A stretch of DNA of 63,178 nucleotides from Ilumatobacteraceae bacterium (lineage in GTDB: Bacteria > Actinomycetota > Acidimicrobiia > Acidimicrobiales > Ilumatobacteraceae). This document shows, one piece after another, positions 6,552-44,040 of this stretch. The stretch is from positions 1 to 63,178 of the forward strand of contig JALRBS010000160.1 in NCBI GenBank assembly GCA_023262325.1. The letters are read 5' to 3'. Both the position numbers and the translations under genes were made by a program. Each line of letters begins with the position of its first letter. Positions within the stretch are counted from its first letter, which is position 1. The notes beneath the pieces were generated by a model. The model did not search any database, was not told the DNA's origin, and worked only from the letters and a program-made list of their open reading frames with translations.

Positions 6552-7544
6552 ATGTCTGAGCGTCATGTCAGTCGTGCACGTTGGGCAGCAATCGGTGCCG
6601 CTGTCGCCGTCACGTTAGGGGCGGGGGGGCTTGTTGGCGTGAATGCTGCGAGTAACGAGTCAATGTTCACACCGATCACACCCGTACGGATGTTGGATAC
6701 CCGACAGGTCGAGCGCGTCGGATCGCTCGTCTCTCCACAGGAGGCAGAGCCCTACCGACTTGCGATCTCCGGACGGCGAGGTGTTCCAGTGTCTGGTGTC
6801 ACTGGTGTATCGCTCAACGTCACCGTTGTCCAAGGAGAAACCAATGGGTACGGGGGGTATGTCACGGTCTACCCATGCGAGTCAGTGACATCTGATCGAA
6901 CCGATACCTCAAATCTCAACTTTAAAACCGGTCAGACGCTTGCGAACCCCGTGACGACTGCGCTCTCTAGTGACGGATATATCTGCCTATTCGTCTACGG
7001 GACCGCGCACCTTCTTGTTGACGCAAACGGGTATTACTCAGCGTCAAGCGCAACTGCGTTACAGGGCCCCGCCGGTGAAACCGGGCCGCAGGGTGAGGTT
7101 GGGCCGGCCGGTGACAATGGCGCCCTTAGCGGTCTCACCTGTGGTGACGAAGAGTTTGTCGCCATGCTCGAAGGTGCATGGACGTGCGCGAGGCTCGTCA
7201 GGGCGCCTGGTGGAACGTTTACTGGGACTCTTGATTTCGAGATGATTTGCTGCACCATTCAGGACTGGGTGAGCGCAGAGGGATTTTCATCGGTGGGGTT
7301 TCAGACAGACAGCACTTGCGACGAACTAATGTGTGTATTTGCTGTCACCGGTATCGAAGACCACACCACCTGCTCGATTCGCGCCGACATTGATGGGATT
7401 TCGTACACCGAAGCAAGTCCTGACGTACACGTTTCACAATACGAAATCGTAATTGATGGCATGGCTTGGTTTACCTTCGAGCACCTTGGCAACCGATCCG
7501 TTGACGTCCAATGTGGCGCTTCGATCGTTGCTGCTAACTCGTAG
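6552..7544 (+). CDS. Exported surface protein: one LDTR module plus a collagen-like segment
   Basis: A 330-residue protein. Residues 10-34 form a signal peptide or anchor. Residues about 39-165 are one copy of a module beginning FTPITPVRMLDTR and ending with a LLVDANGYY strand; its landmarks are GVPVSGVTGVSLNVTV, TSNLNF and a Gly-rich YVTVYP strand. Residues about 171-188 are six Gly-X-Y triplets (GPAGETGPQG...), a short collagen-like stalk. The cysteine-rich C-terminal domain (about nine Cys) is not recognised. There is no LPXTG or C-terminal helix, so attachment to the wall is not explained. The module is related to those in the sortase fusion at 38909. Function unknown; likely cell surface. 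Confidence 0.75.
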   Translation: MSERHVSRARWAAIGAAVAVTLGAGGLVGVNAASNESMFTPITPVRMLDTRQVERVGSLVSPQEAEPYRLAISGRRGVPVSGVTGVSLNVTVVQGETNGYGGYVTVYPCESVTSDRTDTSNLNFKTGQTLANPVTTALSSDGYICLFVYGTAHLLVDANGYYSASSATALQGPAGETGPQGEVGPAGDNGALSGLTCGDEEFVAMLEGAWTCARLVRAPGGTFTGTLDFEMICCTIQDWVSAEGFSSVGFQTDSTCDELMCVFAVTGIEDHTTCSIRADIDGISYTEASPDVHVSQYEIVIDGMAWFTFEHLGNRSVDVQCGASIVAANS

Positions 7545-7716: not shown

Positions 7717-10700
7717 GTGACAGTGGATCCAAAATTCCTTGACGGCCTTCGCTATCGCTGCATCGGCCCCACCCGCGGCGGTCGAGTGGTGGCAGTCGCT
7801 GCAGACCCGGTCAAAAAGTCGGTGTTCTACTTCGGCGCCGTCGCCGGCGGCGTATGGAAATCCGATGATGGTGGGCAGTACTGGGAAAACGTATCGGACG
7901 GGTTTTTCAACAGCGCATCGGTAGGCGCGCTTGCCGTTGCACCATCTGATGGCAACGTCATCTATGCCGGCATGGGTGAAACGACAATTCGAATCGATGT
8001 CACGCATGGCGATGGCATGTACAAGTCAACGGACGCAGGCGTGACCTGGAGCCATATTGGTCTTGGCGAAACGCGACATATCGGCGAAATTCGGGTACAT
8101 CCGACAAACCCTGACCTCGTCTACGTCGCAGCACTCGGACATGCGTCAATTGCAAGTTCAGATCGCGGCGTCTACCGATCGTCAGATGGCGGCGCGAGTT
8201 GGGAATGTGTGCTTCATGTGAGTGATGTCGCAGGTGCTGTTGATATTGCGATCGATCCGTCGAACCCGCGCATTGTCTACGCGACGATGTGGCAGGCACA
8301 GCGAACCTTCTGGTCGATGAACAGCGGTGGACCCGATAGTGGGTTGTGGCGTTCGCGTGACGGTGGCGATACCTGGGAAAACATCAGCACGAAGCCAGGA
8401 ATGCCGAACGGCACCCTTGGCAAGATCGGTGTGTCGGTGACGGGCGGGCAGTCTGGACGCGTCTACGTAATGGTTGAGGCTGAGGGTCGAACGCGCGGTC
8501 TCTATCGTTCGGACGACCATGGCGAGAACTGGGAACATGTCTCAGCGAACCCTGACCTGTCCTGGCGACCGTGGTACTACATGCACGTCATTGCGCACCC
8601 GACCGACCCCGACACGGTGTTTGTCTTCAATATGAAGGCATGGAAATCCATCGACGGTGGTCGAACCTTCACGCAGTTCCACACGCCGCACGGCGATAAC
8701 CACGCGCTGTGGATTGACCCGACCGACCCTGAACGAATGATTGGTTGCGACGACGGTGGCGCATGGGTGAGTTCAAACGCCGGCCGGTCATGGTCGACGG
8801 TGTACAACCAGCCAACGGCGCAGTTTTACCATGTCGCCGTTGATGACCAGTTCCCGTATGTGGTCTACGGGTCGCAGCAGGACAACACGAGCATTGCGGT
8901 TCCCAGCCGAACCGGAATGGGTGCAATCAGTTGGAGCGATTGCTTCGCCCCGGGTACTGCCGAGAGCGGCTATGTCGCTCCGAAGCCGGGTGATCACAAC
9001 ATCGTCTATGTCGGCGCGATCGGCTCGTCGCCGGGTGGTGGTGACGCGCTGCAGCGATACGACCATCGCACCGGTCAGATTCAGTTGGTGAGTGTGTGGC
9101 CAGAGTCCGCGCATGACGGCAACTCGGCTGAAGTTCGATTCGCGTGGACCTATCCGATTGTGTTCTCGCCGCAGAACCCAGATGTGCTGTACGCGGGCGG
9201 CAACAAGGTGTTTCGCTCAGAAAACGAGGGGCATTCATGGACTGCGATCAGCCCTGACTTGACCTACGCCGACCCGGACACGCTCGGTGTGTCGGGACCG
9301 CTCACCATGGACGCGGCTGGTGCTGAAATGTACGGCACCGTGTTCTCGTTGATGGCTTCGGCCCATCGACCTGGAATGCTCATCGCCGGTTCGGATGACG
9401 GTCGCGTGCACGTCACCCATGACGAAGGTGGCTCATGGACTGAGGTCACGCCGGCTGATCTGCCGAAATTCTCACAGGTCACAATGATCGCTGAGTCACC
9501 GCACATTGACGGAACGGTCTATATGACGGCTGCTCGACACAAGATGGGCGATTACGCGCCGTATGTGTTCAAGTCAACTGACGCTGGAGCGACCTGGGCA
9601 CGAATTGATCACGGGCTTCCGGCAGAGGAGTTTTGTCGTGTCGTTCGCGAGGATCCGAATCGACGAGGCCTGTTGTACGTCGGAACCGAAATGGGTCTCC
9701 ACATGTCGCTCGATGACGGTGCGACGTGGCAGCCATTGCAACTCAACTTGCCGGTCAGTCCCGTGTACGACCTCGTTGTCGCTGGCACCGATCTCGTTGT
9801 CGCAACGCATGGGCGATCGTTCTGGATTCTTGACGACCTGAGCCCGCTTCACCAGTTGTCTGACGAGGTGATGTCGGCGACCCATCATCTCTTTCGACCA
9901 CGTGACACCGTTCGCATTCGTCCACACATCGCAGCAGCGTGGAGTGGTTCGCCGGGTGGCAAAAACTACGGGGTGCTCGGCGCTCGCAGCTCAGCGTTCT
10001 ACGTTGAAGAGCAGGACACCGGTCATGTGACGAAACGTGTCATTGACGCAGGCGAAGATTTACCGCTCGGTGTGCAATTCTCGTACATCCTTCCGGAGAA
10101 TGCGGTCGGCCAGGCGTCGCTCAGTATCTATGACGCGCATGGTTCGCTTGTCGATACGTTCCCCAGCGAGATTCCTGCGGAGAAAAAGGATCGGAAAGGT
10201 TTGTACATCACGGCAAGAGCTGGAGTGAACACGTTCGTGTGGCCGTACACCTACCCGGCTGGCGAGAAGATGGTCGACACCGACTTCCACGGTCGACCGA
10301 GCGGACCGCTCGCCTGCCCAGGCAACTACACCGCAACATTGACTGTTGGTGACTGGTCAATGTCGCAGGACTTTGTGCTGACCCACGATCCTCGGGTTGA
10401 GGTCGACGATGCTCACCTCGCAGAACAATTCACTCTGTCGATGAGCATTCGTGACAAGTTGTCCGACATCGTCGTCGGAGTGAATTTGATTCGGTCGCTG
10501 CGTCGTCAACTTGACGATTGGCGCTGCCGACTCACCGGCCGTGACGATGCAACGCGCGTGCTGACGGCAATGGAATCGGTACTTGCCAAACTCGGGGCAG
10601 TCGAAGATGTTCTCGTGCAGAAAGAGTTCACCGCGGATGGTGACACGTTGAATCATCGAGAGCAACTCTTCGAATTGCTTGGAGGGCTCGCTCCGATCGT

Positions 10701-10866
10701 GAGCAGTGCTGATGCACGTCCTACGGAACAGTCATACGCCGTGTTTGAGAAGCTGGCGAGCAAGGCAGATGCGCAACTCGCCACCCTGCACGAGCTTGTC
10801 AACGGCGAGCTCGCTGAGGTGAATGCACAGCTCGCCGCGCTCGGCATTGACATCGTCGGCGCGTAG
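7717..10866 (+). CDS. Giant BNR/VPS10-like beta-propeller protein
   Basis: A 1049-residue protein made mostly of beta-propeller repeats of the sortilin/VPS10 and glycosidase BNR type: many copies of S-x-D-x-G-x-x-W (for example KSDDGGQYW, KSTDAGVTW, RSRDGGDTW, YRSDDHGENW, MSLDDGATW). After about residue 690 follows a WILDDLSPL segment, a beta-sandwich region and a helical C-terminal part (about 900-1040). No signal peptide is visible at the chosen GTG start, so it appears cytoplasmic, unlike many secreted relatives. Relatives are often labelled glycosyl hydrolase, but no catalytic acid can be named here. It stands alone. Confidence 0.8.
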   Translation: MTVDPKFLDGLRYRCIGPTRGGRVVAVAADPVKKSVFYFGAVAGGVWKSDDGGQYWENVSDGFFNSASVGALAVAPSDGNVIYAGMGETTIRIDVTHGDGMYKSTDAGVTWSHIGLGETRHIGEIRVHPTNPDLVYVAALGHASIASSDRGVYRSSDGGASWECVLHVSDVAGAVDIAIDPSNPRIVYATMWQAQRTFWSMNSGGPDSGLWRSRDGGDTWENISTKPGMPNGTLGKIGVSVTGGQSGRVYVMVEAEGRTRGLYRSDDHGENWEHVSANPDLSWRPWYYMHVIAHPTDPDTVFVFNMKAWKSIDGGRTFTQFHTPHGDNHALWIDPTDPERMIGCDDGGAWVSSNAGRSWSTVYNQPTAQFYHVAVDDQFPYVVYGSQQDNTSIAVPSRTGMGAISWSDCFAPGTAESGYVAPKPGDHNIVYVGAIGSSPGGGDALQRYDHRTGQIQLVSVWPESAHDGNSAEVRFAWTYPIVFSPQNPDVLYAGGNKVFRSENEGHSWTAISPDLTYADPDTLGVSGPLTMDAAGAEMYGTVFSLMASAHRPGMLIAGSDDGRVHVTHDEGGSWTEVTPADLPKFSQVTMIAESPHIDGTVYMTAARHKMGDYAPYVFKSTDAGATWARIDHGLPAEEFCRVVREDPNRRGLLYVGTEMGLHMSLDDGATWQPLQLNLPVSPVYDLVVAGTDLVVATHGRSFWILDDLSPLHQLSDEVMSATHHLFRPRDTVRIRPHIAAAWSGSPGGKNYGVLGARSSAFYVEEQDTGHVTKRVIDAGEDLPLGVQFSYILPENAVGQASLSIYDAHGSLVDTFPSEIPAEKKDRKGLYITARAGVNTFVWPYTYPAGEKMVDTDFHGRPSGPLACPGNYTATLTVGDWSMSQDFVLTHDPRVEVDDAHLAEQFTLSMSIRDKLSDIVVGVNLIRSLRRQLDDWRCRLTGRDDATRVLTAMESVLAKLGAVEDVLVQKEFTADGDTLNHREQLFELLGGLAPIVSSADARPTEQSYAVFEKLASKADAQLATLHELVNGELAEVNAQLAALGIDIVGA

Positions 10867-36757: not shown

Positions 36758-36787
36758 CTTGCTTTCATTCTACTACCCTGCGGCGCC

Positions 36788-37450
36788 GTGGCTCTTGGCG
36801 AAACAACGAACACTGAAGTGATCTGGACGATTGTTGTTGGCGCGGGCGCAGGAACACGTTTTGGGGGGCTGAAGCAATACGAGACGATCGGGGGACGACG
36901 AATCATCGATGTGTCGGTAGCCGTTGCTCGCGAGTGCTCCGATGGTGTTGTCGTCGTCGTTCCAGCGGACGACGCCGAACGTGAACAGGGGGTGCCCGGC
37001 GGGGCGACGCGCAGTGCGAGCGTTCGTGCCGGGCTTTTTGCGGTGCCCGACGAGGCGACGATTATCTGCGTACACGATGCGGCACGTCCATTCGCCGACG
37101 TCGACCTCTATCACCGCGTGATCGACGCCGTTCGAGCCGGCGCAGACGGTGCGGTGCCGGGAGTCGAGGTGACCGACACGATCAAGGTTGTCGCCGACGA
37201 TCATTCAGGTCGAGTGATCTCGACTCCGTCACGATCGACGCTCACCGCAGTGCAGACGCCGCAGGCCTTTCGTGCTGGAGCGTTGCGAGCGGCTCACGAT
37301 CGCAACGTCGAGTCCACCGTCAGTCCAACCGATGACGCCATGATGGTGGAGCGGGACGGTGTCGTGGTTGTTGTTGCTGGCGATCGACGAAATCGAAAAA
37401 TCACAACCCAAGAGGACCTTGTGTGGGCAAGAGGCGAGGTTGAGCGATGA
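36788..37450 (+). CDS. ispD: 2-C-methyl-D-erythritol 4-phosphate cytidylyltransferase
   Basis: MEP isoprenoid pathway. About 220 residues: the nucleotide-binding VVGAGAGTRFGGLKQY (a variant of the usual AAGxGxRxG..KQ), CVHDAARPFAD, VEVTDTIKVV, AVQTPQAFRAGALRAAHD and DDAMMVERDG. The GTG start at 36788 lies 8 bases after TACCCT (36774-36779); the open frame reaching back to 36596 lies inside the Crp gene. It overlaps ispF by four bases. Confidence 0.92.
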   Translation: MALGETTNTEVIWTIVVGAGAGTRFGGLKQYETIGGRRIIDVSVAVARECSDGVVVVVPADDAEREQGVPGGATRSASVRAGLFAVPDEATIICVHDAARPFADVDLYHRVIDAVRAGADGAVPGVEVTDTIKVVADDHSGRVISTPSRSTLTAVQTPQAFRAGALRAAHDRNVESTVSPTDDAMMVERDGVVVVVAGDRRNRKITTQEDLVWARGEVER

Positions 37451-37926
37451 CAACTGATATTCGGGTCGGTCAGGGATTCGATATTCACAGATTCGGCGAT
37501 GATCCGGAACGCACACTTGTGCTCGGTGGCGTGCAGTTCCCGGGCGAACGACCGCTCATTGGACACTCCGACGCCGACGTTCCGGCGCATGCCATCACCG
37601 ATGCGCTGCTCGCAGCCGCCGGGCTCGGCGATCTCGGCTCGAGATTTCCTGATACCGATGCCGCCTGGAAAGATGCGAACTCGATCGAGATGTTGCGTTC
37701 GGTCGCCGATGAGGTCCGTTCTCTCGGGTGGACGATCGGAAACGCTTCCGCAGCAATTGTGTGTGAGCAGCCGCGTATCGCACCGGCTCGAGAACAGATG
37801 CAGGCACATCTTGAGGTCGCGTGTGGCGCGCCGGTCACCGTCACCGGCCGTCGAGCAGAGGGTCTCGGCGCAATTGGCCGGGTTGAAGGAATTGCCTGTT
37901 GGGCGGTGGTGGTGATTTCGAGATGA
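37447..37926 (+). CDS. ispF: 2-C-methyl-D-erythritol 2,4-cyclodiphosphate synthase
   Basis: Next but one step after IspD in the MEP pathway. A 159-residue protein with the zinc motif GQGFDIHRF (Asp and His), LIGHSDADVPAHAI with the third His, the FPDTDAAWKDANS loop and VTGRRAEGLGAIGR near the end. ATG 37447 overlaps the ispD stop; its own stop overlaps the rlmB ATG, so all three are translationally coupled. Confidence 0.95.
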   Translation: MTTDIRVGQGFDIHRFGDDPERTLVLGGVQFPGERPLIGHSDADVPAHAITDALLAAAGLGDLGSRFPDTDAAWKDANSIEMLRSVADEVRSLGWTIGNASAAIVCEQPRIAPAREQMQAHLEVACGAPVTVTGRRAEGLGAIGRVEGIACWAVVVISR

Positions 37927-38867
37927 ATGCACGAGGAGGACGAGGTCAGAAGCCGTCAGGTGGACGAGGAAAGTCGTCAGGAGCGCGTTCAGGTAGCCGC
38001 CCCTCGGGCCGCACCTCGTCGTCTCGCGGTGCAAGCGCACAGCGAAGTAGGGGTGCCGGACGAACCGGCGCGATTCGACGAGAGGGCGAAGCCCGTCCGA
38101 CACGACCGAAGTCGCTCGGAGGAGGTCAGGTAGAAGGGCGTCAGGCCGTTCGAGAACTGCTCATCGCACAGCGCCGAAAAGTTCACGAGGTATGGATCTC
38201 GTCTGAACTCGAAGGTGACGAGGCGCTCGATGACATCGTTGGTCTTGCGAAAGCGAACCGGGTGCCGGTTTCGTACGTCGCTCGACGTCGACTCGACGCC
38301 GAAGCTCGATCTGAGGCGCCACAGGGTGTGCTCGCCAAAGCCGCTGAGGTTCCAGAAATTGATCTCGCGCGCCTCATTAGCCGTCGCCCCGGACGACCCC
38401 CATTTATCGTTGCTGTTGACGGCGTGACCGACCCGGGCAACCTTGGTGCGATCATGCGCTCATGCGAAGGAGCAGGGGTTGACGGTCTCGTCGTACCGCG
38501 ACACCGTGCGGTGCACATCACACCGACGGTCGCGAAAGCGGCAGCAGGTGCTGTTGAACACGTGCCGGTTGCCGTTGTACCGGGGCTGCCGGCAGCGCTC
38601 GCACGAATGAAAGACAACGGAATCTGGGTTGTTGGGCTCGATGATGCGGCAGATCGCAGTTTGTTTGAACTTGGCGACCTTGCCGAGCAGGCGGTGTGCA
38701 TCGTGCTCGGTGCCGAAGGAGCCGGTCTTTCACGACTCGTGCGCGATCGGTGCGATCTCATCTGCGCGATTCCGATGCACGGTCGTGTTGAGTCACTCAA
38801 CGTGTCGGCGGCCGCTGCGCTCGCGGCATACGAGGTTCGTCGACACCGAACCCAACCTGGCCTGTGA
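37923..38867 (+). CDS. rlmB: 23S rRNA (guanosine-2'-O-)-methyltransferase, RlmB/TrmH type
   Basis: SpoU-family SAM methyltransferase of about 314 residues. A basic, Gly/Ser/Arg-rich head (about 1-70) precedes the substrate-binding domain (EGRQAVRELL) and the knotted catalytic domain with VTDPGNLGAIMRSCEGAGVDGLV, CIVLGAEGAGLSRLV and IPMHGRVESLNVSAAAALAAYE. The disordered head may bind rRNA. It is last in the ispD-ispF-rlmB unit. Confidence 0.92.
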   Translation: MNARGGRGQKPSGGRGKSSGARSGSRPSGRTSSSRGASAQRSRGAGRTGAIRREGEARPTRPKSLGGGQVEGRQAVRELLIAQRRKVHEVWISSELEGDEALDDIVGLAKANRVPVSYVARRRLDAEARSEAPQGVLAKAAEVPEIDLARLISRRPGRPPFIVAVDGVTDPGNLGAIMRSCEGAGVDGLVVPRHRAVHITPTVAKAAAGAVEHVPVAVVPGLPAALARMKDNGIWVVGLDDAADRSLFELGDLAEQAVCIVLGAEGAGLSRLVRDRCDLICAIPMHGRVESLNVSAAAALAAYEVRRHRTQPGL

Positions 38868-38908
38868 CGGCTACCTGACACACGCCAGGCTTGCGTAACC
38901 TCTGCCGA

Positions 38909-40687
38909 GTGGACGGCGTCTCTGAGCACTCATTCGAGGTGCCCCGCCGCCAGTTCATCGCCGGCATCGGCGCCGGCGTTGGTCTCGCAATGGCAGCAGA
39001 CGCCGGGCTGTTCTCACCGCGGCTCCTTGCAGCAGCATCAGTTCCAACTGGAGCGACACGGTTCGTTCCGCTCCCGATGCAGGTTCGACTAGCCGACACC
39101 CGTAAACCCCCCGACGGTGAGTATCCCTACGAAGTCGTCGATGCAGAGTCGGGGCAACATATTCGAGTTCGCGTCATCGGTCGCGCCGGAGTGCCAACGA
39201 CCGCGACCGCCGCCGTCTTCACGGTGACTGCTGTCAATCGAGCTACGACGAACTACATAACGGCATTCCCGAGCGGACCATCGGTTCCGGTTGTCTCAAC
39301 GCTCAACATGGCGCGACGTGGCGAAGTCGCAGCAAACCTCGCAACGATCAAACTTGGCGCCGGAGGAATGATCGACGTGCTGTCGAAGTATGAGGCGAAA
39401 CTCATTGTCGACATCGCCGGGTATTACGAGGCGGTCGACATGCCTGTGCGGGCAGGACGCTACGTCGGACTCGATTCACCCGAACGAATTCTCGACAGTC
39501 GAAACGGTGGTGCGGCGGTGCCCGGCCGCGAGGCCATTGTTGAGGTGCCTCTTGATCGTCGGGTGCCTGAACATGCAACCGCCGTAGCGATCAATTTGAC
39601 GACGACAAAAACGCTCGGCTGGGGGTATCTCTCGTGCGTGCCATTCGGCTCGACAGACATGCCCTCGACGTCAAACCTCAACGTTGATGGGGTGATGCAG
39701 ACGCGGGCTGCGGCCGCGGTCGTGCGCGTTGGAGAATCATCCGGCACAAGAGGCTTCTCGGTGATGACCTCCGGCGGCGGTCACATCATCGTTGATCTCG
39801 TCGGTTATTACACCGGCGACGAAGCGGACGAAAGCAGTGATGGTCTCTTTGTGCCCGCGGACCCTGTGCGGATCGTCGACACGAGGAACCCAACACCTGC
39901 TCGGCTCTGGCGAAATTGGATGCTCGAATCAACCGTGCCGGGGCGCGCTGCGACCGACGCGTCATCAGTTGTCGTCAATGTGACCGCGGTCGACGCGCTC
40001 GGACCGGGTTACGTATCGATGTTGCCGGCGAGATCATTCCGGTGGACGCCCTCGGTTCGCCCATCGACATCGAGCGTGAACCACACGGTGCGCGGCCAGA
40101 CCGTTGCGAACCAGGTTGTCTGCAGAGTCACGGACACCTACGGAATTTCGGCCTACGCCTCCGAAGGTTGCCACCTCCTCATCGACTACTCGGGTTACTT
40201 CACCGGTCGACCGCGCCAACCCACTGTCGGCGCACCATCCAATCCGCCGCCGCAGTCGACCGGGCCCGAATGGCGACTGAGAATTCCAAAGATTGGGCAC
40301 CTGTCCACGGTTCGCGACGGAAATTCGATCGAGGTCACCGACAGCGGCGATACCTGGCATTGGAGCGGCACCGGCAACATGGGTGATGTCGCCAACGTTG
40401 CGCTATTCGCGCATCGCACCGCTGCCGGTGGACCGTTTTACAACCTGCACTTGCTTGCGCACGGAGATCGCGTTGAGGTCGTAACGAGCGACCGCCGAGT
40501 TTTCGAATATGAGGTCGCTAGTCGACGACTAACGACGAATGATCGGGATGACATTTTGAACGCCGCACGATCCGTCGATGCACCCTCGGTCGCTCTCATT
40601 GCGTGCACGTACCGCAACTATCTACCGTCGAGTCTTGCCTACCGGATTGTCGTACTCGCAAAACTTGTGCGCTGGTACGAGTGGTAG
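38909..40687 (+). CDS. Exported sortase fused to three LDTR-type repeats
   Basis: A 592-residue protein. The N-terminus has a twin-arginine-like signal (PRRQFIAGIGAG, Arg13-Arg14). Three copies of a module of about 120 residues follow: LADTR at 61-65, ILDSR near 190 and IVDTR near 320, each ending in a VDIAGYY/VDLVGYY-type strand. The C-terminal domain (about 455-590) is a sortase: LRIPKIG opening, His502 in LFAHRTAAGGPF, Cys566 in LIACTYRN and Arg579 in LAYRIVV, the full His-Cys-Arg set although the usual TLxTC reads ALIAC. GTG 38909 lies 7 bases after TAACCT. Likely a surface transpeptidase; substrate unknown. Confidence 0.8.
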   Translation: MDGVSEHSFEVPRRQFIAGIGAGVGLAMAADAGLFSPRLLAAASVPTGATRFVPLPMQVRLADTRKPPDGEYPYEVVDAESGQHIRVRVIGRAGVPTTATAAVFTVTAVNRATTNYITAFPSGPSVPVVSTLNMARRGEVAANLATIKLGAGGMIDVLSKYEAKLIVDIAGYYEAVDMPVRAGRYVGLDSPERILDSRNGGAAVPGREAIVEVPLDRRVPEHATAVAINLTTTKTLGWGYLSCVPFGSTDMPSTSNLNVDGVMQTRAAAAVVRVGESSGTRGFSVMTSGGGHIIVDLVGYYTGDEADESSDGLFVPADPVRIVDTRNPTPARLWRNWMLESTVPGRAATDASSVVVNVTAVDALGPGYVSMLPARSFRWTPSVRPSTSSVNHTVRGQTVANQVVCRVTDTYGISAYASEGCHLLIDYSGYFTGRPRQPTVGAPSNPPPQSTGPEWRLRIPKIGHLSTVRDGNSIEVTDSGDTWHWSGTGNMGDVANVALFAHRTAAGGPFYNLHLLAHGDRVEVVTSDRRVFEYEVASRRLTTNDRDDILNAARSVDAPSVALIACTYRNYLPSSLAYRIVVLAKLVRWYEW

Positions 40688-40844: not shown

Positions 40845-41804
40845 TCAGAATTGATGCTGTTCGTAAATTGCGCCGAGATGGTGCGCAACAACATCGGCGA
40901 ATCTGATCGGCTCACACCCGGGCTGGACGCCTTCTTCGCAACACGAGGCGATTGGCTCGACGATCGTGTTCATGTGCGGGTCGCAGAACAGCACACACGA
41001 GTAACGGTCGGTACCACCCCGATTGCGTACTCGATGTGGGGTAGCCCTGAGCCGACCGTTTGACCATCGTCGCAACATCGAGCCAGAGTTCATAACGAAC
41101 GCGCCGTCGATCGGTTCAACGTCCAACCAGTCGCCGCCACCCATCGAGACTTGGAGACCGCCTGCAGCATCTTGAGACACCAACGTGATACCGCCGAAGT
41201 CGATATGTGGTGCTGAGCCGAATACGTCCTCCGGAGCGTCGGTCGCTACCGACGGATAATGAAGGAGACGAAACCATGTCGTGGGGACCTCAAAGGTCGA
41301 GATGATTGCGCCGTTTCCGTCGAGAGCCTCGTCGACGATCTGCAAGATGTCGAGAGCGGTATCGCGCATCGCATCGTGGCAGGCGGTGACTGCGTCGCGA
41401 AAGCCATCAAGTGCTGGCCATTGATTTGGCCCGGCCATTGGTGTGCGGTTCCGAACCTCGCGTGAGTCGGGAGCGTCTTCGCGCATCATCATGAACGATT
41501 CGCTGCGATTTGCTGCCGTTGCGGTGACAACCTCGGATGAGCGATCAACTGCAGTGCCGTCGGCGATATATCCGCGATGGTTGTGGTCAAGGGCGATGCC
41601 GAGTTTTTCCTCCAACGGCAATGCGTGAAAGCGCCGCGACGCTTCGAATGCCGCTGCGACGACGTCAGGGGCAACCCCGTGGCCGACGATCTGCGCGAAG
41701 CCGATGTGTTCGTAGGCCTCAAGCAGTTGAGCGGCTACCGATGCGCGAGCACCTTGAAGGTCAATGATCGGTACCGACGTTGATCGCACGGGCGAAATGT
41801 ACAT
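40845..41804 (-). CDS. 2-oxoglutarate/Fe(II)-dependent dioxygenase, isopenicillin N synthase-like
   Basis: A 319-residue protein. The N-terminal domain has VPIIDLQG and YEHIGFAQIVGHGV; the jelly-roll core supplies the iron ligands HID in APHIDFGGIT and a later His in ATPHRV. DRYSCVLFCDPH gives the Arg-x-Ser that binds 2-oxoglutarate. Fungal-type beta-lactam genes are absent, so it is a general oxygenase of this superfamily. It ends 13 bases from tRNA-Thr. The ATG at 41804 is the first plausible start; a nearby in-frame GTG is possible. Confidence 0.88.
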   Translation of the reverse strand: MYISPVRSTSVPIIDLQGARASVAAQLLEAYEHIGFAQIVGHGVAPDVVAAAFEASRRFHALPLEEKLGIALDHNHRGYIADGTAVDRSSEVVTATAANRSESFMMMREDAPDSREVRNRTPMAGPNQWPALDGFRDAVTACHDAMRDTALDILQIVDEALDGNGAIISTFEVPTTWFRLLHYPSVATDAPEDVFGSAPHIDFGGITLVSQDAAGGLQVSMGGGDWLDVEPIDGAFVMNSGSMLRRWSNGRLRATPHRVRNRGGTDRYSCVLFCDPHMNTIVEPIASCCEEGVQPGCEPIRFADVVAHHLGAIYEQHQF

Positions 41805-41875
41805 CGCCGAGTCACCAACTCACAGCGAACCTCTCGCGAGTGACATCCTGCGGCGAATATGACTACCCTTCACCT

Positions 41876-42442
41876 ATGGCACGCGACGCTCAACGTCGCC
41901 CACGGGCGATTCGAACAACTGCTCTCATCACGGCATCCATGCTCGCTGCGATGTTCGGTACCGCTTGCGGGGGCAGCAGTACTGCCGAAGAAACCACGAC
42001 CACACTTGCGCAAGAAGTTGCGACGACGGAGGCCACGGTAGCGACCACGACGACAGAGGCAATCGAGACAACGACAACGGCCGCTGTCATCGAGCTCACT
42101 CTCGACGGTGCCAAGGTGGTCGTTGCGAACGCGAGCAGCGTCAACGGGTCGGCAGGACGAATGACGGAATTACTTGCCGCTGAAGGGTTCACCATGGGAA
42201 CCCCAACCAACTCGACCGAAGGAAATCTCGGCGCATCAAAGATCTACTACGGCGACGCTGATGGAGCGCTCGCCGTCGCCGAGTCACTCGTTCGAGTGTT
42301 CGGAGGGGTTATTCAACTGCTCGAGATGCCGACCGTACCTCCAGTCGCATCGTCAGACCTTGGTGACGCCACGGTGCTCGTCGCGCTCGGCGATGACTTT
42401 GCCGATCAGGCACTGCCAGGTGCGACGACCGCATCCCCCTGA
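41876..42442 (+). CDS. LytR_C domain lipoprotein
   Basis: About 188 residues. A Tat- or Sec-type signal with lipobox ending GTAC gives a lipid-anchored outside protein. A Thr/Glu/Ala-rich linker (about 40-75) precedes a LytR_C domain (about 78-185) opening KVVVANASSVNGSAGRMTELLAAEGF. LytR_C domains accompany wall-polymer ligases of the LCP family. The ATG at 41876 follows TACCCT (41864-41869) by 6 bases. A second LytR_C protein sits 1 kb away at 43411. Confidence 0.8.
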   Translation: MARDAQRRPRAIRTTALITASMLAAMFGTACGGSSTAEETTTTLAQEVATTEATVATTTTEAIETTTTAAVIELTLDGAKVVVANASSVNGSAGRMTELLAAEGFTMGTPTNSTEGNLGASKIYYGDADGALAVAESLVRVFGGVIQLLEMPTVPPVASSDLGDATVLVALGDDFADQALPGATTASP

Positions 42443-43153: not shown

Positions 43154-43414
43154 GTGTTCTCTGATCGACAGCGCGCCATTCTCGAATTCGAACGTTCATG
43201 GTGGACGTTGGATGAGCCACGCGATCGGGCAATCCGCGCGCGCTTTCAGTGCTCGGTAGACGAGTACCATGCAGAACTCAACGAGTTGCTTGAAACTCCC
43301 GAGGCGGTCGAGCACGACGAACTGCTCGTACGCCGCCTTCAACGGCAGCGGTCACTTCGCCGTCGGGAGCGTTTAGGCAACGGAACCGAGCTCTCAGGAG
43401 GCACACCCACATGA
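43154..43414 (+). CDS. DUF3263 family protein
   Basis: About 86 residues with the actinobacterial DUF3263 core FSDRQRAILEFERSWW followed by an RARFQCSVDEYHAELNELLETPEA helix pair and a basic tail. It looks like a small helical, possibly DNA-binding protein; function unknown. In mycobacteria the same family (Rv0430) lies next to the LytR_C protein VirR (Rv0431). The gene is coupled to the LytR_C gene at 43411 by an ATGA overlap. Confidence 0.85.
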   Translation: MFSDRQRAILEFERSWWTLDEPRDRAIRARFQCSVDEYHAELNELLETPEAVEHDELLVRRLQRQRSLRRRERLGNGTELSGGTPT

Positions 43415-44040
43415 GCGAGACACGTGATCCGAGCGGGGGCGTTCCACGTCGAGTACCGCGCAACGAACCGGCTCAGGTCGCGGGCGGACTTGCCATTGTT
43501 CTTGCGGTGATCGCCGTCGTCGCCGGCTTCCTCATTCTGCGCTCGATTTCGTCGAGCGGTGATGCGGTGCTCGGCAGCCCGGTTGCCACAACAACGGTCG
43601 AGACCACCGTTCCCACGGCTGCGGCCGAGTCAACGACAACCGTTGCTGAGGTCACCACGACCTCGGTTGCAGGACCGGTCACCGATGGAGCGTCTGTCAT
43701 CATCGCCAACGCCAACGGTGTGAGTGGTTCGGCGGGTCTGTTGAGTGATGAACTCGTTGCCGCCGGCTATTCGGTTGGTTCGCCGACAAATGCATCGTCC
43801 TCGATTGGTGGGCGGCTTGAGCTCACCGTCGTCTACTACGACGCTGGCATTCCTGCGGCTCAAGCCGTAGCGGAATCGATTGCTGCGGCACTCGGCGGAG
43901 TTTCTTCAATTGCGCCGGTACAAACGCCAGCGCCAACCCAGACGGGCTCGCTTGACGGAGCCGGCGTCCTCATCATGCTCGGTCTCGACAAGGCTGGCCG
44001 AACGCTCGCCGAGCTTGCGCCGGCGTCAGCGACCGGCTGA
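43411..44040 (+). CDS. LytR_C domain membrane protein, VirR-like
   Basis: A 209-residue protein: cytoplasmic head of about 22 residues, one membrane helix (about 24-46), a Thr/Val/Ala-rich linker, and an external LytR_C domain from about residue 93 (VIIANANGVSGSAGLLSDELVAAGY). Pairing with DUF3263 matches the mycobacterial Rv0430-VirR locus, where VirR scaffolds LCP wall ligases. The assignment rests on order and architecture. It converges on glycerate kinase. Confidence 0.82.
   Translation: MSETRDPSGGVPRRVPRNEPAQVAGGLAIVLAVIAVVAGFLILRSISSSGDAVLGSPVATTTVETTVPTAAAESTTTVAEVTTTSVAGPVTDGASVIIANANGVSGSAGLLSDELVAAGYSVGSPTNASSSIGGRLELTVVYYDAGIPAAQAVAESIAAALGGVSSIAPVQTPAPTQTGSLDGAGVLIMLGLDKAGRTLAELAPASATG

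Follow-up and report, generated by a model that had tools for sequence, protein, structure and literature searches.

A sortase domain fused to three LDTR repeats in Ilumatobacteraceae and its possible surface-docking head

The window, the whole stretch of 63,178 nucleotides that was analysed, carries a gene for a sortase domain preceded by three LDTR repeats (LDTR3-sortase), and this fusion is conserved within the family Ilumatobacteraceae. The product is a conserved, unclassified sortase variant in which the anchor appears to have been swapped. In the genomes counted, the number of LDTR copies per protein follows a one-or-three rule. We propose that LDTR3-sortase is a cysteine transpeptidase of sortase type that is exported and carries a surface-docking head instead of the usual membrane anchor, a reading to which we give an even chance.

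The fused gene and its conservation

The window corresponds to contig C126 in a fragmented source genome of 2.23 Mb and 221 contigs. The features of the fused gene and of the genes directly before it are as follows.

36770..38867, + strand: ispD-ispF-rlmB-like genes directly upstream, named from their sequences; conserved neighbours that do not belong to the machine
38909..40687, + strand: LDTR3-sortase gene, 592 aa; GTG start, with an in-frame TTG at 38891 also possible
38909..39052, + strand: predicted N-terminal export signal of twin-arginine type (RRQFI, helix, A-x-A)
38945-38959, + strand: Tat motif RRQFI, aa 13-17; the signal helix covers aa 13-28 and A-x-A precedes repeat 1
39059..39433, + strand: LDTR copy 1, aa 51-175
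39458..39817, + strand: LDTR copy 2, aa 184-303, the copy modelled alone
39845..40207, + strand: LDTR copy 3, aa 313-433
40208..40255, + strand: proline-rich linker from head to sortase, read from the translation
40256..40684, + strand: sortase domain (Pfam PF04203 and fold)
40361..40363, + strand: Trp485, aligned with the class E Tyr (GHY) in a PDB alignment
40412..40414, + strand: His502, predicted catalytic
40604..40606, + strand: Cys566, predicted catalytic nucleophile
40643..40645, + strand: Arg579, predicted catalytic

By eye, no clear ribosome-binding site was seen at either GTG 38909 or TTG 38891. The protein consists, in order, of the twin-arginine signal, three LDTR repeats, the proline-rich linker and the C-terminal sortase domain. 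The reading frame, repeats, sortase domain and three putative catalytic residues all lie where the original prediction had placed them. The LDTR repeats are 26–32% identical to the first copy. The AlphaFold2 model of the full-length protein (22 rows) has a mean pLDDT of 88.3 and a pTM of 0.79, and its low-confidence part is confined to residues 1–41 (pLDDT <50). The sole 19-residue segment with a hydrophobicity of at least 1.4 starts at residue 17, and no hydrophobic segment was found at the C-terminus of the protein.

A search for the LDTR–sortase domain architecture had been suggested, and the fusion does recur. A full-length orthologue is present in 22 of 100 genomes, the window's own included, among the matches listed. 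Among the same matches, all of these genomes belong to the 61 from the window's own family and none to the 39 from other families of the order. Pieces of the gene occur in three more genomes (G010, G011 and G049), at least some of them at contig ends. In an even draw of the class, 12 of 296 genomes gave a match at E ≤ 1e-25, all of the same family, and named records with the fused gene are mostly Ilumatobacteraceae, Ilumatobacter and casp-actino5-type MAGs. The 22 orthologues, the window's protein among them, share 28–61% identity, which rules out chance or an artefact as the source of the fusion.

The surroundings of the gene are of a housekeeping kind. An rlmB homologue lies directly upstream in 12 of 28 loci, and other clades have upstream shikimate-type genes or a cysteine synthase/glutamate racemase pair, as named from their sequences. 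Downstream of the sortase gene, LytR_C-domain proteins at 41780-42442 and 43411-44040 (+) flank a uridine-kinase-like gene, and this arrangement is conserved in the four closest loci.

Copy number and fold of the LDTR domain

The repeat type had been linked to secreted Acidimicrobiia proteins, and it is indeed common among them. For a lone LDTR repeat (copy 2), the predicted model has a pLDDT of 96.5. No sequence match to it was found in the PDB, no credible LDTR model in Pfam, NCBIfam or PHROGs, and no Foldseek match against the PDB at E ≤ 0.001. By VIA, the nearest fold is that of the Bd2133 fibre tip (8ond, Z 9.5; 8ok3, Z 9.4), with 104 of 120 residues aligned at 2.6 Å and 9% identity. The lead of Bd2133 is modest, as Pgp3 (Z 7.7) and many jelly rolls (Z ~6–7) follow, and the VIA folds near the lone repeat include adhesin tips and carbohydrate-binding modules. 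The Bd2133 tip of Bdellovibrio fibres is described as a trimeric β-sandwich (PMC10769870). The likeness to a trimeric fibre tip prompted a count of LDTR copies per protein.

In the complete genome G027 (stretches L273-L301), the best 150 of 287 candidates grouped into 33 three-copy, 11 two-copy and 29 one-copy clusters. Reading 40 non-triple clusters at the DNA level gave 17 ORFs with three copies, 21 with one and none with two, and all 11 apparent pairs among the best 150 of 287 became triples. The tally for these best 150 of 287 candidates is thus 50 ORFs or clusters with three copies, 21 ORFs with one and none with two. The 21 matches in G101 (stretches L302-L310), a complete genome from another family, represent six triples and three singles. 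The 20 matches in G007 represent six triples and two singles, one single being cut by a contig end.

The window's own genome (G000), a fragmented MAG, has 32 matches. They make up six triples, eight singles and one pair, together with four fragments that border contig ends or sit in short frames and were left out of the counting. The pair, on contig C193, is followed by the first quarter of a third copy before the match ends, and a case on contig C5 is cut by the contig end and is not a sound two-copy protein. The C193 protein (L013, L023) is a subtilase with two LDTR copies and a broken-off third, reflecting either an assembly error or real decay. The loci of fused-gene records, a sample picked for likeness to a three-repeat query, have 76 triples, 2 pairs and 3 singles. 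Of the two-copy cases, L114 proved to be a triple that a frame change splits, and L110 a triple interrupted within one frame.

Hence, the pairs that were re-checked all proved to be interrupted triples or listing effects, and no sound two-copy LDTR protein was found. Nor were proteins with four or more copies found in G027 (best 150 of 287), G101, G007, G000 or the fused loci. In the fused family, each of the 34 rows that are neither cut nor frame-broken has exactly three copies.

Over the 22 orthologues the copies cluster by position: first repeats form one clade (support 100/99), third repeats likewise (89/81), and second repeats nearly do. In a quick tree of 39 triples, 25 singles and the window's protein, position labels also cluster, needing 59 changes where shuffled labels needed 79 on average, yet they are mixed, which gives a divided picture as to one triplication event shared by all LDTR proteins. 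The copy number of three is not arbitrary, a point missed in the original prediction; it favours a single-chain trimer over three independent modules, and we consider it probable that LDTR3 has this form.

The single-copy proteins differ from the triples in what accompanies the domain. The comparison was confined to complete ORFs, which removed longer triple ORFs truncated at stretch ends. Among the single-copy ORFs, 13 of 30 have runs of five or more GXY triplets, compared with none of the 21 triple-copy ORFs (Fisher p 2.7e-4, collagen counted by itself). These counts were made after the collagen and HxHDDRY motifs had been noticed and in a set where many G027 singles are paralogues. A further 8 single-copy ORFs contain HxHDDRY, which we take to be a motif of phage tail fibres, and 9 of the 30 have neither. 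Either motif is thus present in 21/30 single-copy and 0/21 triple-copy ORFs. HxHDDRY directly follows the single LDTR domain in L273, L277, L281, L286, L287 and L295 of G027. Single-copy proteins L302 and L303 of G101 have 58 and 64 consecutive GXY triplets, respectively, forming collagen-like stalks. The window holds a protein of the same kind.

6552-7544, + strand: LDTR protein of 330 aa with one copy of the domain, directly followed by a short collagen-like stretch

In this protein the LDTR domain is followed by GPAGETGPQGEVGPAGDNGA, which gives a weak match to Pfam Collagen (E 0.0065) that falls under the cut-off. The next gene, at 7717-10866, matches Sortilin-Vps10/BNR.

The sortase domain, its sisters and candidate substrates

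Residues 457–587 match Pfam Sortase (PF04203) with an E value of 2.3e-17 and 63.4 bits, above the gathering score of 26.6. Residues ~446–592 of the predicted model match solved sortases by VIA with Z scores of 19.0–18.5 over 131–143 residues. The top structure is 3re9 (SrtC1; Z 19.0, 131 residues aligned, 2.2 Å), and 5cuw (SrtE1; Z 18.8, 134 aligned, 2.0 Å, 27% identity) and 5utt (A. oris SrtA; Z 18.5) score similarly. The proposal that this domain is a sortase, which a different fold would have overturned, thus stands.

The same is true of the proposed catalytic residues, Cys566 and Arg579 being conserved in 22/22 orthologues and His502 in 21/22, which points to retained catalysis. From its sequence and predicted model, LDTR3-sortase is very likely to be an active sortase. 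The close orthologue L026 (G012) has Tyr at the His502 position (AYRT) and keeps Cys and Arg; a sequencing error is possible there. The motif ALIAC in place of TLxTC was read correctly in the original prediction, but it is less odd than was thought, as another sortase of the same genome has LFAC. The residue directly before the catalytic Cys is Ala in 20/22 orthologues and Gly in 2/22.

The assignment to a class is less straightforward. The best of the NCBIfam sortase class models is that of class E (NF033747), at 46.3 bits against a cut-off of 160, and the models of class F (NF033748; 25.1 bits, cut-off 166) and class D (NF033746; 18.9 bits, cut-off 165) also remain below their cut-offs; the class GN model scores below the class E model. 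For class E, one report (PMC5148588) proposes that a Tyr of the β3/β4 loop, Tyr229 of SrtE1, favours Ala in LAXTG. The Tyr of the GHY motif in the aligned class E PDB chains would correspond to Tyr229. At this position the orthologues have Trp (20/22), Leu (one) or Ile (one). With both the class E cut-off and the Tyr lacking, the window's sortase resembles class E yet misses two of its marks. Of the sorting signals collected in related genomes, 28/29 are LPXTG, in a set found with an LPXTG model.

Three sortases from the window's genus (L053, L313 and L314, in G015, G014 and G006) have an N-terminal membrane helix and an acidic stalk and are without LDTR. A sortase tree of 68 domains included 37 fused ones. 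In a tree of 70 rows, 25 fused rows form a clade with these three unfused rows (support 98/95), and four fused rows (L045, L048, L121 and L204) group with 30 other unfused sortases (98/76). Given the position of these four, the fusion may have arisen more than once. None of 14 genomes has both the fused and the membrane-anchored form, a count that is indicative only, as the genomes were picked for having one form or the other. L053 sits in another gene context, and hence the anchor was not swapped in place. Separate from these are class F-like sortases (LITCGG, by eye), L199, L315-L319 and L194, in G033, G051, G030 and G001; among the matches listed, LPXTG-like matches lie near them in G001 and G033.

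As predicted, no LPXTG substrate gene is present in the window, where the best sorting signal has an E value of 0.71 and no LPXTG match. A genome-wide search found at least two LPXTG proteins in the source genome, with LPSTG on contig C102 and LPITG on contig C75 (E 8.9e-9 and 3.3e-7). Two further sortases, both on contig C97, read as class E-like from their TLTTCHP and TLFACHP motifs, and they could serve these two proteins. A dedicated substrate of LDTR3-sortase encoded in its neighbourhood was rejected as unproven; the neighbours are housekeeping genes. LPXTG-like proteins occur within ~8 kb of the gene in two (G033 and G030) of 11 fused genomes among the matches listed, a number that chance might account for. 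In Ilumatobacter coccineum, the reported number of LPXTG ORFs is 13 (PMC3910706).

Proposed mode of action and comparison with known systems

In the first step of the proposed route, the folded protein would leave the cell via Tat, or via Sec in deep-branching relatives, and its signal would then be cut. The N-terminal signal had been predicted to be of Tat type. This holds for most of the family, RRx[FVL][IL] being present in 16/22 orthologues, but not for all of it: the N-termini of the other six, which are deep-branching, have no Tat motif and look Sec-like. The source genome has a gene for TatC (E 2e-61), so that both sequence marks of a Tat substrate, the twin-arginine motif and TatC in the genome, are present. 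Thus, Tat export of LDTR3-sortase can be proposed with good confidence.

Were the Tat signal to stay uncut, LDTR3-sortase would be anchored in the membrane after all. It would then be an ordinary type II membrane sortase, with the uncut Tat or Sec signal as anchor and the LDTR trimer as a spacer that sets its height in the envelope. All other sortases that were read, the class F-like and L053 types, do have an N-terminal membrane helix, the signal is the only hydrophobic stretch of the window's protein, and 4/22 orthologues are without a plain A-x-A ahead of repeat 1. However, A-x-A is found there in 18/22, and Sec-like N-termini of deep-branching members have it as well. Moreover, a spacer would not need exactly three copies, and the anchored sisters use an acidic stalk. 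A membrane sortase of this kind is therefore unlikely.

In the second step, the three LDTR domains would pack around one axis to form the single-chain trimer, as the copy number, stalks and fold suggest, and single-copy LDTR proteins would form an equivalent trimer from three chains. In the third, the LDTR3 head would bind a component of the wall or surface and keep the enzyme where sorting signals are presented, a role suggested by the membrane-anchored sisters. The idea that the enzyme docks through its own repeats gains from L053, L313 and L314, which lack the repeats and are held by a helix; the accompanying idea that it binds other repeat-bearing proteins is so far unsupported. The chances that the head serves as a dock are, in our view, evenly divided. 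In the last step, Cys566, with His502 and Arg579, would cleave a C-terminal LPXTG-type signal and hand the protein to an amine.

The protein might also be mainly a binding or sensing protein, in which the head, as a trimer, would recognise some glycan or surface polymer, while the sortase domain only hydrolyses or has lost transpeptidation. The adhesin tips and carbohydrate-binding modules among the nearest folds of the head would suit such a function, as would the orthologue with Tyr for the catalytic His and the fact that no dedicated substrate gene travels with the fused gene. The near-complete conservation of Cys, Arg and His at 28–61% identity speaks against it and makes it improbable. 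Self-association, in which the repeats would let the enzyme join with other LDTR proteins that the cell makes, or act on them, is more improbable still: such proteins are numerous (30 matches in the window's own genome in one search; at least 150 listed in G027), but none with a readable C-terminus ends in an LPXTG signal, for which reason they were also rejected as substrates, and three copies that already close a ring need no partner copy.

Taken together, docking by LDTR3 in place of an anchor is the reading preferred here. We tentatively extend it, at somewhat less than even odds, to the view that the LDTR domains of Acidimicrobiia are surface domains that always form trimers, built from three chains with collagen or fibre stalks or from one chain; in Ilumatobacteraceae the one-chain form would have been joined to a sortase as its anchor, giving a soluble, self-docking family outside the named classes. 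The membrane, as the meeting place of lipid II and the sorting signal, is generally regarded as the site of sortase action. If the proposal is true, the existence of a conserved exported family that lacks a membrane helix of its own implies either exceptions to this rule or a surface head able to take the membrane's part. The one-or-three rule is simple and testable for LDTR, which is abundant in the genomes examined and has no family model. Through it, a repeat without a name becomes a candidate trimeric domain, and hundreds of secreted proteins that lack names could be interpreted as trimers. No report of LDTR or of an LDTR–sortase fusion was found in a literature search that left subscription papers outside, and novelty in print is thus not established; the search likewise found nothing on a soluble or secreted sortase, a pseudosortase, or a class E sortase in Acidimicrobiia.

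Among solved structures, the Bd2133 tip (8ond, 8ok3) and, more remotely, C1q/BclA-like trimeric heads are closest to one LDTR domain. Like the C1q/BclA-like heads, single LDTR domains adjoin collagen runs, but in single-copy proteins they usually stand before the collagen and not after it. Unlike both the Bd2133 and C1q-like heads, LDTR3 has its three copies in one chain.

The class E sortases, S. coelicolor SrtE1 (5cuw), S. avermitilis SrtE (5go5) and A. oris SrtA (5utt), have the fold and the His-Cys-Arg set in common with the window's protein. In contrast to them, it has no separate membrane helix, carries a 400-residue head in front, and its sortase type forms its own branch of the sortase tree. 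The membrane-anchored sisters, L053, L313 and L314, lie inside the fused clade and have the same sortase subtype with WHW and LVACS motifs, but possess a helix and acidic stalk where the window's protein has the signal and LDTR3.
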